Source: Phycisphaeraceae bacterium (GTDB lineage Bacteria; Planctomycetota; Phycisphaerae; Phycisphaerales; Phycisphaeraceae). Taken from it: DNA of 64,000 nt. The notes under the pieces were generated by a model that saw only the letters and a list, made by a program, of their open reading frames with translations, was not told the origin of the DNA and searched no databases. The translations under genes were made by a program, and so were the position numbers. Position 1 is the stretch's first letter. Every line of letters begins with the position of its first letter. Positions 22,459 through 64,000 of this stretch are shown here, one piece after another. The DNA lies in contig JAFIFY010000095.1 in NCBI GenBank assembly GCA_020831765.1, forward strand, positions 1 through 64,000, given 5' to 3'.

Positions 22459-22666
22459 ACGTCTATGCTCCTGATTCCGCGTCGCCAACCTTAGCGCCAT
22501 CGAGCGCGTGACTCTCGACTACACTATTGGTCAATTGTCCACCGTGAGCAACCGTCGCCCCGCGCTATGCCGGTTCGATGCGGCCCGTCCAAGGCCATTT
22601 TCCAACTTACGCGGAGCTGCCGAACATCCGCCGTGCGGTCGCGGCCGGAGATGGACAAACCTTGCC

Positions 22667-23548
22667 ATGGTCCAGACCCTCTCCACGATTCGTCAACTGC
22701 TCGCCGCGCGTGGCCTGCGCCCAAAACACCGTTTGGGCCAGAACTTTCTGCACGATGCCCACCACCTGGACCGGATCGTCCAGGCCGCTGAATTGACCGG
22801 GCCGGCTCTCCCTCCGTCGTCGGGCCAAGCCGACCCGGCAAACTCCGCCGCACCTCGGGACACCCATCCGCGGGTCCTCGAGATCGGACCGGGGACGGGT
22901 GTGCTCTCGGAGCGACTGCTCGAAGCGGGAGCCGAGTTGATCGCCGTTGAAGTCGATGGTGACCTGATCCCCATTCTTGAAGAGCGACTGGCGCCCTGGG
23001 CCGATCGCCTGCGCCTGATTCAAGCCGACATCCTGCGCAACAAGAACCAGTTGGAGCCCTCCATCGCCGCAATGCTCAACGAAGCTCCGTTCCGCCTGGT
23101 CGCCAATCTCCCCTACCAGGTGGCTTCGCCGCTGCTGGTCTCACTCGCTCGGGATTTTCCCACGTGCATCCTCGGGGTGGCCATGGTGCAGGATGAGGTT
23201 GCCCGGCGCTTGACCGCCCAGGCCGGCGAGGATGAGTATGGGCCCCTGAGCCTGATGGTTCAGGCCTGGTTCAGGGTGGAACGCGTCGCCGAGCTTTCGC
23301 CGGATTGCTTCTGGCCTCGCCCTGAAGTGCGCTCGGCGGTGGTGAAGTTGATGCGGCTCGACCGGCCTCGCTGCTCCGATGCGGCCCAATTTGAATCGAT
23401 GGTCAGGCTGCTCTTTCAGAGCCGCCGGAAGCAGATCGGCGGCATCCTGCGTAGGCACGGACTCAAAACGGTGGAACTGGACCCCACTTTGCGGCCAGAA
23501 GAACTTACGCTCGAACAGATCGACGGCTTGGCCATGGGCCGGAATTAA
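22667..23548 (+). CDS. rsmA: 16S rRNA dimethyladenosine transferase (RsmA/KsgA)
   Basis: A 293-residue methyltransferase with the family start LGQNFLHD near residue 24, the SAM-binding EIGPGTG near 71-77 and the catalytic NLPYQVASP near 146. It dimethylates two adjacent adenines at the 3' end of 16S rRNA during 30S maturation. The ATG at 22667 is chosen because family alignment begins there; the frame runs back to 22508 but that part is unlike RsmA. A Pro/Ser/Ala-rich insert of roughly 20 residues before the SAM motif is unusual. The following glycosyltransferase gene is on the same strand. Confidence 0.95.
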   Translation: MVQTLSTIRQLLAARGLRPKHRLGQNFLHDAHHLDRIVQAAELTGPALPPSSGQADPANSAAPRDTHPRVLEIGPGTGVLSERLLEAGAELIAVEVDGDLIPILEERLAPWADRLRLIQADILRNKNQLEPSIAAMLNEAPFRLVANLPYQVASPLLVSLARDFPTCILGVAMVQDEVARRLTAQAGEDEYGPLSLMVQAWFRVERVAELSPDCFWPRPEVRSAVVKLMRLDRPRCSDAAQFESMVRLLFQSRRKQIGGILRRHGLKTVELDPTLRPEELTLEQIDGLAMGRN

Positions 23549-23625
23549 TTCGGCGTATTCAGAGGCTTCCGAACCGCTTAAGTGTTAGAATCGTGTCAGT
23601 CGGGGATCGCGTTCTGGAGACTGTC

Positions 23626-24429
23626 ATGAGCACTTTGGTGGCCGTGCCCGTTTATAACGAGCAGAAATACGTATCACACGTTCTGCGGAAGATACTTCGA
23701 TTCGCGCCTGATGTGCTGGCGATCGATGATGGCTCGACCGATGAGACGCCGCTCCTGCTTGCCCGGCAACCGGTCGAGGTGATCCGCCATGCCCGGAATC
23801 GAGGATACGGCCAGTCGCTGATCGATGCCTTCCGATGGGCCAACTGTTACGGGTTCCAATGGCTGATCACCATGGACTGTGATGAGCAGCATGAGCCGGA
23901 GGGACTGCCCGATTTCTTCCGCGCTATCTATGATGCGGATCGGGCATCGCCCGGGGTGGATGTCATCAGCGGAAGCCGATATCTGCCCCAATCCGTCGGC
24001 GACGACCGACCGCCGCCCGATCGCCAGGCGATCAATCGCACGATCACCCGGCTCATCAACGAAAAACTGAAATTTGGGATCACCGATTCGTTCTGTGGCT
24101 TCAAGGCCTACCGGGTCTCGGCCATCAACAGGCTAAATCTGACCGAGAAGGGGTATGCCTTTCCCCTGCAGTTCTGGGTCCAGGCCTATGCAGAGGGGCT
24201 CACGATCAAGGAGATCCCCGTCCGGCTGATCTATAACGATCCGAACCGAAGCTTTGGCGGCCCCCTGGATGATTCGGACCATCGGCGAAGCCATTACCTT
24301 TCGGTTTTCGAGCGGGAGTTGGCGATGCTCGAAACCGCTGGAGAAAACGTCGAGTGTGCCGGGTGTGGAGGGAACGGACGGAATCGATCGAATGCTCAAC
24401 ACTCAGCCGGCGAACCACCACTGGCCTGA
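23626..24429 (+). CDS. GT2 family glycosyltransferase
   Basis: A 267-residue GT-A fold enzyme. The N-terminus has PVYNE, then DDGSTDET near 37, HARNRGYG, and a DxD-type MDCDEQH near 83. The SGSRYL and the later GFKAYR segments resemble dolichyl- or polyprenyl-phosphate mannosyl/glucosyl transferases. No membrane anchor is seen at the C-terminus, so it probably acts at the inner membrane face on a lipid carrier. GGAG lies eight bases before the ATG at 23626; the GTG extension to 23593 is less likely. It sits between rsmA and a conserved protein of uncertain function. Confidence 0.88.
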   Translation: MSTLVAVPVYNEQKYVSHVLRKILRFAPDVLAIDDGSTDETPLLLARQPVEVIRHARNRGYGQSLIDAFRWANCYGFQWLITMDCDEQHEPEGLPDFFRAIYDADRASPGVDVISGSRYLPQSVGDDRPPPDRQAINRTITRLINEKLKFGITDSFCGFKAYRVSAINRLNLTEKGYAFPLQFWVQAYAEGLTIKEIPVRLIYNDPNRSFGGPLDDSDHRRSHYLSVFERELAMLETAGENVECAGCGGNGRNRSNAQHSAGEPPLA

Positions 24430-24462: not shown

Positions 24463-25920
24463 ATGCGCCTGCATATCGAACCCCATCCCGGACAGTTCGA
24501 ACCTCGATCGTCATCGGATTCGAACGACCATGGCCACCCATCCTTCGCCGTCCAGACCGGGCATCAGGCCTGGTTCTGGCATCCGGGCATTCTTGTCAAG
24601 CTGCTGCTGACTTCCCGCCTCGCGCAACAATGGGGGGTGCCGGATCGGCACTGGGTGGTCGATCACGATATCCATTCCATCCTGACCATTCCCATCCCTG
24701 TACGCCAGGAAGAAGGCCTGAAGATCGTTCCGCTGTTCCTCGGACTTGAGAACCCGGTCGTCCCCAGCGGAATGCAGCCGGCCGTTGAAGCCCCGGGCAT
24801 TGTGGAGCGAATCGAAATCTTCTCCGGGCAACATGAACTGGAACCGTCGATCGAGCGGGGTCTGATCCGCCTTGCCGATACCTTCACCAACGTCGGCAGT
24901 GATTATCCATCGTTGGCCGGACAGGTGATGGCGGTCATCGGGAAACTATTCAACACGGTCTTTCCCGGACAACGGTTGCCCGAGTTCGCATACACCACGG
25001 ACCTGGTCACCGATCCCCGGTTCACCGCCCGCGTGCGTGACCTGGTGTACGATGCCCCGAGGCTGGTTCGACATTACAATCAGGCGGTGGTCGAAAACCC
25101 GGAGGCGGGGCTTCGTCCCCTGGAAGCCGGTCGCGAACGCGTGGAATTGCCGCTGTGGCTTCTTCGTCATCAACGGCCGCGGCAACCCATCTATATCGAT
25201 CTCGCGGACCATGAACCACAATTGATCGATGAACACGGCCGATCGCTGGACCTCGACGCGTTGCTCGAGCCCTCAACACCTGGCAACAATAAGCGTCGAC
25301 CCGGCGTGATTGCGCCCCGTGCGCTGCTTCTGACCGCGCATCTACGCTCAGCCCATCAAGGAATCTTCATTCACGGGCGAGGCGGAATGGTTTATGACCG
25401 TGCCATGGAGCGTTGGCTGGAACTGGCCGGCTGGGAACGATCATCGCTATGCCCGGCGATGCTGGCTTCAGCCGATGCATTCCTCGACTGGTCCGTTCCG
25501 GTCAACGGCCAAAAGGAGCTCCGGGATGCGATCTGGTGGCGCCACCACCTGCCGCACAATGTCGATCGTTTCCAACCGGTCGATGATGAGCTTCGCCAAC
25601 GCAAGCGGCGGACCATTCAGCTTCTGGCCCAGCCGCTGACACGTGAGGTCAAGGCCGCATGGTTCGAGCAACTCAAGGAGCTGAACCGCACCTTGGCGAA
25701 CGCTTTTCCCGGGGCCTTGGCTGAAGCCGACCGACGGTTGCACCAGGCTCGACAGGGCGTGCGGAATCAGTCCATCGCCGGCAAGCGCGATTGGCCCTTT
25801 TTTCACTACCCGGATGATGATCTGCGGGCATTGGCCACCCGATTGGACCACATGATCCAAACCCCGCCCCATGGGCCACCGACCCACCCGATCCAGGCTT
25901 CGAATCCGGATCGGACTTGA
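24463..25920 (+). CDS. Uncharacterised protein, possible distant BshC relative
   Basis: A 485-residue soluble protein that I do not firmly recognise. Three segments recall BshC, the cysteine-adding enzyme of bacillithiol synthesis. They are TGHQAWFWHPG (about 32-42; BshC has an NQPG..TGPLY segment), WVVDHD (about 64-69; compare a WxxxEDHD segment) and the APRALL...HGRGGMVYD stretch (about 283-308; compare RP...GGPGE.AY). Length is near that of BshC (about 540). No BshA or BshB gene lies nearby, so bacillithiol synthesis is not shown. The start at 24463 lacks a ribosome site and may lie further in. It is likely co-transcribed with the upstream GT2 gene. Confidence 0.6.
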   Translation: MRLHIEPHPGQFEPRSSSDSNDHGHPSFAVQTGHQAWFWHPGILVKLLLTSRLAQQWGVPDRHWVVDHDIHSILTIPIPVRQEEGLKIVPLFLGLENPVVPSGMQPAVEAPGIVERIEIFSGQHELEPSIERGLIRLADTFTNVGSDYPSLAGQVMAVIGKLFNTVFPGQRLPEFAYTTDLVTDPRFTARVRDLVYDAPRLVRHYNQAVVENPEAGLRPLEAGRERVELPLWLLRHQRPRQPIYIDLADHEPQLIDEHGRSLDLDALLEPSTPGNNKRRPGVIAPRALLLTAHLRSAHQGIFIHGRGGMVYDRAMERWLELAGWERSSLCPAMLASADAFLDWSVPVNGQKELRDAIWWRHHLPHNVDRFQPVDDELRQRKRRTIQLLAQPLTREVKAAWFEQLKELNRTLANAFPGALAEADRRLHQARQGVRNQSIAGKRDWPFFHYPDDDLRALATRLDHMIQTPPHGPPTHPIQASNPDRT

Positions 25921-25939: not shown

Positions 25940-26578
25940 ATGTTCCGTAAGATAGCGGCCATGCAAGTCCACCTTGATGAAGTCCGCGTCGAGCTTTCCG
26001 GCACCACGCTCGCCGAGCTCCTGCGATCGGCCAAAAAACGACTGAGCGCGGCCCATCGCGTGGTCGTTGAGGTCAAGCTCGATGGCTTGACGCTGACCGC
26101 CGAGGAGATCGAGGCGGCCTCGGGCAAGCGAGTTGCCGGTGAGTTGAAGCTCTTCAGCGCCGACCCGCGTCAACTGGGTGCCGCCGCGCTCGAGCAGGCC
26201 CGCCAGCGCCTGCCTGAAGCGGCGGGACACCAGGAGCAGGCCGCTGAGATGCTCCAGAAGGATGAACCTTCGGCGGCGCTCAAGAAGCTGGCCGAGGCCC
26301 TGGAAATCTGGATGCAGACCCGCCAGGCGATCTCCGATTCCACCGAACTTCTGGGACTGGGGCCGGGCGAGTTCCAGATCGAGGGCCAATCACTGGCGGT
26401 TCACATCGATGAACTGTTCCAGAGCCTCAAGGGGCTCAAGGGCATGATCACCGCGGGTGACCACAGCGGCCTGGCCGATTCCCTGGCTTACGAATGGCCG
26501 GAGATCACGGAGAAGTGGCAGACCATCCTCCTCAAGCTCGCTGAAAAACTGCTCAAAACGACGGGTCGCCTGGCCTGA
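25940..26578 (+). CDS. Conserved-looking hypothetical protein, mostly helical
   Basis: A 212-residue protein (205 if the ATG at 25961 is used). It opens with a short beta-rich stretch and then has three or four long amphipathic helices rich in Ala, Glu, Gln and Leu. It has no signal peptide, membrane segment or cysteine. The charged helical pattern suggests a soluble scaffold or helical-bundle protein. It follows the BshC-like gene by 19 bases, so they are probably co-transcribed. The function is unknown. Neither candidate start has a clear ribosome site. The coding status rests on the clean frame, strand context and protein-like composition. Confidence 0.65.
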   Translation: MFRKIAAMQVHLDEVRVELSGTTLAELLRSAKKRLSAAHRVVVEVKLDGLTLTAEEIEAASGKRVAGELKLFSADPRQLGAAALEQARQRLPEAAGHQEQAAEMLQKDEPSAALKKLAEALEIWMQTRQAISDSTELLGLGPGEFQIEGQSLAVHIDELFQSLKGLKGMITAGDHSGLADSLAYEWPEITEKWQTILLKLAEKLLKTTGRLA

Positions 26579-55743: not shown

Positions 55744-55759
55744 ACCTCGTGACCTCGCC

Positions 55760-55849
55760 GGAGAGGTGACCGAGTGGCTGAAGGTACCGCATTGCTAATG
55801 CGGCGTAGGGGGTTAACTCCTACCGAGGGTTCGAATCCCTCCCTCTCCG
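55760..55849 (+). tRNA. tRNA-Ser(GCU)
   Basis: A 90-base serine tRNA. The acceptor stem pairs GGAGAGG (55760-55766) with CCTCTCC (55842-55848), discriminator G at 55849. The anticodon arm CCGCA-TTGCTAA-TGCGG gives anticodon GCU (codons AGC/AGU). A long variable arm and the T arm GAGGG-TTCGAAT-CCCTC are present. CCA is not encoded. It is flanked by the GH50-like gene and the PEP-CTERM gene, with its own likely promoter and a T-rich tail. Confidence 0.97.
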
Positions 55850-55860
55850 TTTTCTTTTAA
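55850..55860 (+). terminator. T-rich stretch after tRNA-Ser
   Basis: TTTTCTTTT directly follows the tRNA, whose stable acceptor/T-arm fold can act as the stem. This is a plausible intrinsic terminator; no additional hairpin is needed. Confidence 0.5.
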
Positions 55861-62755: not shown

Positions 62756-64000
62756 ATGAATTCGTCTTCGCAGTCATTCCGGCCCCTGAATTCACTCGCC
62801 AGCGCCCTGGCCGTCGGCATTTCAACGCTGGCGATCGCCGCGTCTTCCCTGGCGGTTCAGCCCCAGACATGGCAGCATCAGACGCCGGCCGACTTCAACC
62901 AGGGAAAGCTGGACAATGCCGTGGTCACCAGTTTCGGTGACCTCAAGCCGGCAACGCAGTCCCGGGATATCGGCAAGCTGGAGGATGATCTGACGGTCAT
63001 CCATGCCATTTACGCTCTTGAAGATGACCTTTACATCGCCGCCGGGCCGAGAACGACGCTGCTCAAACGCGACGGCGACGAAATCGAAAAGATTCTCAGC
63101 CTCGAAGGCGAGCAGATTTTCTGGCTGGGTGAGTGGGAAGGACGACCGCTGGTGGCGGTGAGCGGCGAAGAGACCAGCCGGCTCGCGGTGCTTGATGGCG
63201 AAGAACTGGACACGCTGATGCCACTGCCCGAGGATGTCCGCTATATCTGGGACGTGATCACCGTCGGGCGGATCATCTACGTGGCCACCGGCACCGAAGG
63301 CCGCGTGCTCCGGCTCAACCCGGCCGCGCGGCGAGATGCCGATCGCATCAAGGTTGTTCTTGATGCCCCGCAATCCAACATTCTTCGCCTGGCCAAGGAT
63401 GCCAACGGCCGACTCTATGCCGGCACCGACACCGATGGCCTGGTTTACCGCATCAGCCTTGAAGATGTGGACAACCCCAGCGTATTCGTCATGCTGGATG
63501 CCAACGAACCGGAGATCGGCTCGCTGATCGCCATGCCCGATGGCACGATCTATGTCGGCACGGCCGATGCCTCGCAAGCCCGACCGGGCAGCATGCTTCG
63601 CCCCCGCGAGGGCGATGAAGGCCGCGCAGAGACACTGCCCGCCACGCCTGATGCCCCCCCTCCCGCACCGGAACCCATCGACGCCCCGGATCAGCCCGAG
63701 GCCGAGCGGCCCGTCGAACCCGCGCCCGAAAACGCCCAGGATTCGGCAGCTCCGGAAGCCCCCGACCACCCGACCAACGACCAGGAGCAGGCAGCGCCAT
63801 CCGAACCGGAAGCTGACGGCCAACCCGACGACGCCCCGGCCAACGGCGCCGATGAACCGGCAACTGAGAATCAGTCCTGGGGGCGCCTCGGTGCCCAGGG
63901 GCACCTATCGCCGCGGGATATGACGCTCCAGCAGTTGACCACCGCGCTGAACGCCGCCGAAGGTCGCGCAGCCCCAACGCCCGAGCAGCGGGATGCCCTG
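62756..64000 (+). CDS. Secreted beta-propeller-like protein, partial (3' end beyond the window)
   Basis: The frame is open from ATG 62756 through the last base, 415 codons. A signal peptide (about 1-33) is followed by repeated blades of about 45 residues with patterns like DDLYIAAGPRTTLLKR, GRIIYVATGTEGRVLRL and GRLYAGTDTDGLVYRI, typical of WD40/NHL-like propellers. A Pro/Glu/Ala/Asp-rich linker covers about 283-377 before a further structured part. It sits just after the S55-type gene and could be its partner or substrate. Function is otherwise unknown. Confidence 0.75.
   Translation, partial: MNSSSQSFRPLNSLASALAVGISTLAIAASSLAVQPQTWQHQTPADFNQGKLDNAVVTSFGDLKPATQSRDIGKLEDDLTVIHAIYALEDDLYIAAGPRTTLLKRDGDEIEKILSLEGEQIFWLGEWEGRPLVAVSGEETSRLAVLDGEELDTLMPLPEDVRYIWDVITVGRIIYVATGTEGRVLRLNPAARRDADRIKVVLDAPQSNILRLAKDANGRLYAGTDTDGLVYRISLEDVDNPSVFVMLDANEPEIGSLIAMPDGTIYVGTADASQARPGSMLRPREGDEGRAETLPATPDAPPPAPEPIDAPDQPEAERPVEPAPENAQDSAAPEAPDHPTNDQEQAAPSEPEADGQPDDAPANGADEPATENQSWGRLGAQGHLSPRDMTLQQLTTALNAAEGRAAPTPEQRDAL

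Follow-up and report, generated by a model that had tools for sequence, protein, structure and literature searches.

The window, by which we mean the whole 64,000-nucleotide stretch of Phycisphaeraceae DNA that was analysed, is part of contig C63 in a genome of 4.7 Mb and carries a gene for a putative ligase immediately downstream of a glycosyltransferase gene. The two genes, their neighbors and the conserved segments of the ligase are arranged as follows, with conservation counted over the rows of the larger of our two family alignments.

22508 to 23548, + strand: rsmA/ksgA, the 5' neighbor (TIGR00755, E 3.6e-59), probably outside the pathway.
23593 to 24429, + strand: GT2 glycosyltransferase of 278 amino acids (PF00535, E 7.9e-23), the proposed maker of an amino-sugar glycoside.
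24463 to 25920, + strand: gene of the divergent BshC-like ligase, 485 amino acids from an ATG start, so named from hhalign and the fold predicted by AF2.
24556 to 24567, + strand: T-G-H-Q (residues 32-35), paired by hhalign with its counterpart T-G-Q-Q of BshC; G33 and H34 in 72/72 rows, Q35 in 66/72.
24580 to 24588, + strand: H-P-G (residues 40-42); H40 in 69/72 rows, G42 in 72/72.
24655 to 24669, + strand: V-V-D-H-D (residues 65-69), paired by hhalign with its counterpart D-D-H-D of BshC; D67 in 72/72 rows, D69 in 71/72.
25144 to 25158, + strand: E-L-P-L-W (residues 228-232); E228, P230 and W232 each in 72/72 rows.
25372 to 25395, + strand: H-G-R-G-G-M-V-Y (residues 304-311); G305, G308 and Y311 in 72/72 rows.
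25940 to 26578, + strand: ORF of 212 amino acids, the 3' neighbor, no Pfam or NCBIfam match above cut-off, probably outside the pathway.

The GT2 gene ends 33 bp before the ligase gene begins and is itself situated 3' of rsmA/ksgA. Far downstream in the window, ARAGORN places tRNA genes for Ser(gct) at 55759-55850 and Arg(ccg) at 63698-63783. Matches to the ligase family were obtained in 51 of 61 genomes, with the window's own genome counted, and relatives also occur at seven named Planctomycetota loci, at least three of which come from genomes already among the 61; the GT2-ligase pair is present in the cultured strain Poriferisphaera heterotrophicis ZRK32 (locus L036). The ligase ORF is conserved among planctomycetes and belongs to no family of Pfam or NCBIfam.

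Across 43 loci from several families, the GT2 gene adjoins the ligase gene in 31, always upstream and on the same strand, and within the window's own family it is adjacent in 24 of 29 short loci. It is the one neighbor kept with the ligase across families in these 43 loci, and 10 of the 12 genomes in which the two are not adjacent carry the GT2 elsewhere; of the remaining two, G170 (a short contig) yielded none and G023 was outside the GT2 search. A sequence-only reading of the window had raised the question whether GT2, ligase and the ORF at 25940 stay together, which held for the GT2 and failed for the ORF: the latter had no match at E 1e-4 across 76 loci and was rejected as a pathway member. 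We also set rsmA/ksgA aside, as it adjoins the pair solely in the window's own family among the loci searched.

The same reading had suggested a divergent BshC relative. Single-sequence and sequence-profile searches place the likeness between ligase and BshC at or near noise. The window protein gave no useful match in Pfam, NCBIfam or the PDB sequences, nor did the family HMM in the PDB sequences; PF10079, the BshC family of Pfam, was listed at E 1 for none of 29 ligase family members and had no match over its curated cut-off (27 bits) in the window's own genome. A BshC HMM run against the 2270 ORFs of the loci picked up ligase members at E 0.013, 0.15 and 0.24, with unrelated ORFs following from E 0.46, and the family profile reached one canonical BshC (genome G088) at E 2.1e-4, with a PF10079 match at the same place. 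Profile-profile comparison supported homology: against an alignment of 22 planctomycete BshC sequences (from 22 of 30 BshC loci), hhalign gave a probability of 95.4 and E 1.9e-8 for a 29-row alignment of the ligase family, and of 96.3 and E 1.5e-9 for a 72-row alignment in which some genomes are represented twice. The controls were clean, with probabilities of at most 0.2 when the family was compared with eight column-shuffled BshC alignments and with the GT2 and BshB profiles, and of 0.3 for BshC against GT2. Identity between ligase and BshC in the alignments is 11-14%. The 29 rows are the window protein and relatives from 28 of 36 loci; those excluded are L005, L011 and L018 (which share contigs with L031, L032 and L036), the fragment L030, L026 with its broken frame, the badly delimited ORF of L006, and, without a compelling reason, L013 and L029.

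All three BshC-like segments noticed from the sequence are present in the ligase (T-G-H-Q at residues 32-35, V-D-H-D at 66-69 and H-G-x-G-G-x-x-Y at 304-311). The third is probably the counterpart of G-G-P-x-E-I-A-Y in BshC, a match made by eye outside the range aligned by hhalign, and the H-P-G at residues 40-42 may echo the HIGH signature of class I synthetases. The family has invariants of its own, including H34, N206, E228, P230, W232, R295 and R442, that differ from those of BshC, which include E139, R336, E355, R379 and Q503 (L038 numbering). Not all of these BshC-invariant positions appear to be retained in the ligase family: the hhalign-aligned column of E139 holds no conserved Glu, while R336, E355, R379 and Q503 lie beyond the aligned range and were compared by eye.

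AF2 modeled the window protein at a pLDDT of 70.2 but poorly at residues 297-343 (pLDDT <50), and the ortholog from L031 was therefore modeled as well (pLDDT 88.5). In Foldseek, the B. subtilis BshC structure 4wbd was the sole match of the window model at E <=0.001 (E 3.4e-9) and the best match of the L031 model (E 4.3e-13). Comparison of these predicted structures with 4wbd by VIA gave Z 17.0 over 384 residues at an rmsd of 5.3 for the window protein and Z 24.8 over 428 residues at 5.6 for L031, for which the next matches were LysRS-I (Z 17.1), GlnRS (10.9), MshC (10.7) and CysRS (10.4). TM-scores to 4wbd, normalized to query length, are moderate (0.46 for the window model and 0.56 for L031). 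Both models thus have a BshC-like predicted fold, and because this fold, the profile-profile match and the aligned T-G-x-Q and D-x-D segments coincide, we conclude that the ligase is a distant BshC homolog outside PF10079 as curated. The idea of a divergent BshC relative has in this respect been borne out.

The distribution of the genes was surveyed in one sample of 246 planctomycete genomes with PF10079, the ligase family profile, TIGR03999 (BshA), a GT2 profile and TIGR04001 (BshB1). The ligase family profile matched 43 genomes, from which we set aside G088, where the match overlaps the genome's own canonical BshC, and G159, where it is short (E 0.0048) and on another contig than BshC; both encode canonical BshC and BshA, so the lack of canonical BshC among the 41 genomes retained is partly a matter of selection. 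None of these 41, which spread over 12 family labels, has BshA over the cut-off, while 40 have the GT2 and 39 have BshB1 at E 1e-30 (29, including the window's own genome, over the curated cut-off); the exceptions are G170 for the GT2, and G150 (86% complete) and G099 (83% complete) for BshB1. Canonical BshC is encoded by 129 of the 246 genomes, together with BshA in 119 and BshB1 in 126 of them, and the 76 genomes with neither ligase include four with BshB1 and three with BshA. BshB1-like proteins at E <=1e-30 occur without either ligase in G129, G182, G201 and G285; the first two show weak PF10079 matches (E 0.35 and 0.011), so that further diverged ligases may exist. These co-occurrences are inflated by relatedness; the Fisher tests applied to them treat genomes as independent.

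At a threshold set before the search (E 1e-70), the GT2 was found in 40 of the 41 ligase genomes and in none of the 205 others. This threshold falls within a wide score gap between the two groups, with at least 261.6 bits in 5 of the 41 ligase genomes and at most 154.9 bits in 55 of the 205 without, these being the genomes sampled for scores. All 26 rows of the GT2 profile come from beside a ligase gene, so that recovery of the lineages that supplied rows is partly by construction; families f50 and f56 contributed none, yet the GT2 was recovered in both. As for the first enzyme of the canonical set, TIGR03999 (BshA, GT4-type) is absent from the NCBIfam matches of the window's GT2, and the best match to this model in the window's own genome, on contig C46, scores 175.6 bits, below the cut-off of 273.7.

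That neither BshA nor BshB lies nearby, as first noted from the sequence, is true of the locus. A BshB1 gene does sit elsewhere in the genome (G000:C49:863-1549, 189.9 bits; 189.4 bits for the match at 875-1522; both over the TIGR04001 equivalog cut-off of 182.5), with the zinc-site motifs HPDD and HPDH present in an alignment to 2ixd, and with it the GT2-ligase pair becomes a bacillithiol-like set. An IQ-TREE phylogeny of 60 sequences combined 28 BshB1 of ligase genomes with two outgroup sequences and with the 30 canonical BshB1 that scored best, extracted with an HMM built from three sequences; in it, the 28 form one clade inside BshB1 with support of 100/99. The two canonical BshB1 of f6, a family in the window's own order, group with the other canonical sequences. 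No neighbor of BshB1 is conserved across families beyond close relatives, and the gene is not clustered with the GT2-ligase pair. Near the window genome's copy (L183:4635-7925 on the same contig), we recognized by eye a 1097-amino-acid ORF that looks like Cas9, along with Cas1- and Cas2-like ORFs. PIG-L proteins in general, present in 60/60 genomes, were uninformative as a marker.

BshC is the last enzyme of bacillithiol synthesis. Taking the computed homology and fold together with the GT2 pair, the co-occurrence of three genes, the lack of BshA and the separate BshB1 clade, we lean slightly towards reading the ligase as a highly diverged BshC homolog that adds an amino acid in the final step of a variant bacillithiol-like pathway. 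We infer the reactions, and with them the sugar, the aglycone and a redox role of the product, as follows. The GT2 encoded upstream would replace the GT4-type BshA and form an N-acetyl-amino-sugar glycoside, the BshB1-type deacetylase encoded elsewhere (G000:C49) would expose the amine, and the BshC-like ligase would couple an amino acid to it. That amino acid would most likely be cysteine, given the homology to BshC and the occurrence of these genes in genomes that lack the bacillithiol set. The order GT2, BshB1-like deacetylase, ligase is proposed by analogy with BshA, BshB and BshC. Such a pathway would yield a cysteinyl-glucosamine glycoside serving as a low-molecular-weight thiol, with an aglycone or anomeric linkage unlike that of bacillithiol.

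The main rival arises from the GT2, whose nearest families use polyprenyl phosphates: the enzyme could make a polyprenyl-phosphate-linked N-acetyl amino sugar that the BshB1-like protein deacetylates and the ligase aminoacylates, so that a cell-surface glycan or lipid is altered. All 26 GT2 rows match models of the PpgS, dolichyl-phosphate hexose transferase, AglJ, PgfS and ArnC type, a dolichol-phosphate mannose synthase comes closest by sequence among solved structures (E 1.7e-22), and this kinship with polyprenyl- and dolichyl-phosphate sugar synthases suggests a lipid acceptor. Against this, the window's GT2 scores 86.6 bits with the PpgS model NF058614, far below its equivalog cut-off of 370, and a membrane-like segment was found in none of the GT2 proteins (hydropathy maximum at most 1.53 over 26 aligned and 31 full ORFs). 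Moreover, the deacetylase belongs to the BshB1 type, which is named for soluble GlcNAc-malate, with the window genome's own copy over the equivalog cut-off. We consider this envelope route unlikely. Many relatives of the GT2 (23593-24429 in the window) have short cysteine-containing C-terminal tails, such as C-x-C or C-C-x-C, after the catalytic domain.

A second possibility is that the GT2 simply makes GlcNAc-malate and that the end product is ordinary bacillithiol. The predicted BshC fold of the ligase would agree with this, as would the BshB1 proteins, which exceed the curated cut-off in 29 of 41 carriers. However, GT2 enzymes invert, whereas the GT4 enzyme BshA retains and bacillithiol has an alpha linkage. 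The deacetylases also differ: while all 28 BshB1 from ligase genomes keep the HPDH motif, they share fixed P43-T44-P45, N74, R75, R122 and K126, where the 30 canonical sequences have mostly M, G and T at positions 43-45, always D at 74, mostly G at 75, no common residue at 122 (R in three) and G at 126 in 26. At position 138 of the window genome's own protein, the arginine of 30/30 canonical sequences is Y, H or W in the ligase genomes. Changes of this kind, fixed as they are in a loop and at other sites, would fit an altered substrate. Finally, bacilliredoxin (PF06491) is encoded by none of 40 ligase genomes compared to 18 of 20 BshC genomes, in a sample of 40 of the 41 ligase genomes (G099, with a 62-position fragment, left out) and 20 of the 129 with BshC. 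An inverting GT2, these BshB1 changes and the missing bacilliredoxins indicate that the product is probably something other than bacillithiol, and we regard ordinary bacillithiol as distinctly unlikely. Arg109 of BshB, described as a docking contact (PMC4101496), was dropped as a specificity marker, since canonical planctomycete BshB1 vary there too.

The ligase might instead couple the amino sugar to an amino acid that has no thiol and so yield an osmolyte, a signal or an antibiotic-like metabolite. Enzymes with the class I synthetase fold act on many different amino acids, LysRS-I is the next structural match after BshC, and BshC-invariant residues do not all appear to be retained. On the other hand, the gene set occurs where BshA is missing within the same phylum, which suggests that the role of bacillithiol has been replaced, and strong matches of the GshB type are rare: glutathione synthetase (PF02955, E <1e-40) was found in just 3 of the 40 carriers and in none of the 20 BshC genomes, with the remaining matches weak, and is absent from the window's own genome. 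We find a non-thiol product improbable. For strain ZRK32, its authors describe the bacterial genome as lacking glutathione synthase (PMC10945688).

Shared ancestry of a few clades, with the three genes in unrelated processes, is very improbable even though the genomes are related and BshB1 is unlinked to the pair, because within the window's class families f8 and f9 (four sampled genomes) lack ligase, GT2 and BshB1 alike, two of the three genomes of f6 have canonical BshC and BshB1 and the third has neither ligase, and the GT2 persists in the 10 genomes in which the pair is broken up.

Disulfide reductases of the YpdA type were dropped as a marker, as no match exceeded the cut-off in any of the 60 genomes; strong matches below it occur in four of the 40 ligase genomes (the window's own, G014, G115 and G289) and four of the 20 with BshC. 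In G115, a YpdA-like flavin disulfide reductase (L168:2347-3372, on G115:C20; 307 bits against a cut-off of 339.9) lies about 1.9 kb from BshB1 (L168:5238-5939) with one ORF in between, and could be a thiol disulfide reductase. The window's own genome encodes a similar protein at G000:C162:5005-5967.

Returning to the variant thiol pathway, we tentatively propose, at somewhat less than even chances, that an undescribed low-molecular-weight thiol, made by the GT2, the BshB1-like deacetylase and the divergent BshC, replaces bacillithiol as redox buffer in large parts of the Planctomycetota; it would be a cysteinyl-amino-sugar glycoside whose aglycone is not malate or whose linkage is inverted. 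If true, a bacillithiol-type pathway can exchange both the enzyme that starts it and the ligase and still retain the deacetylase. The survey sets sampled genomes with the canonical bacillithiol genes apart from others with a distinct set of three, and it points to the genes and to a cultured strain for settling the question of planctomycete thiols. Genetic tools are available for the planctomycetes Planctopirus limnophila and Stieleria maiorica (PMC11958385). In 2018, Hiras et al. (PMC6282198) still counted Planctomycetes among the major lineages for which a low-molecular-weight thiol had been neither documented nor predicted. Despite that statement, about half of the genomes in our sample (129 of 246) carry canonical BshC, and 41 carry the variant set in whole or for the most part. 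The literature searched, which left out bioRxiv preprints and the bulk of subscription papers, yielded no prior report of the ligase family or the pathway.

Among known systems, the closest is BshC itself (PF10079; 4wbd), which the ligase resembles in predicted fold over nearly the whole chain, in the T-G-x-Q and D-x-D segments and in the company of a BshB1 deacetylase, but from which it differs through the invariants of its own family, its GT2 partner and the lack of BshA in the 41 genomes. For the deacetylase, the closest system is BshB1: the window genome's copy exceeds the TIGR04001 equivalog cut-off and keeps HPDD and HPDH, but the 28 sampled sequences form a clade of their own. The GT2 shares its domain and its best family matches with PpgS, AglJ and DPMS-type enzymes, but stays far below their equivalog cut-offs, lacks a membrane-like segment and is paired with a BshC-like ligase. 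MshC and the class I aminoacyl-tRNA synthetases have the fold of the ligase in common, but they match less well than BshC, and no solved structure of either was matched by sequence. MshC carries out the analogous ligation of cysteine to glucosamine in mycothiol (PMC2922099).
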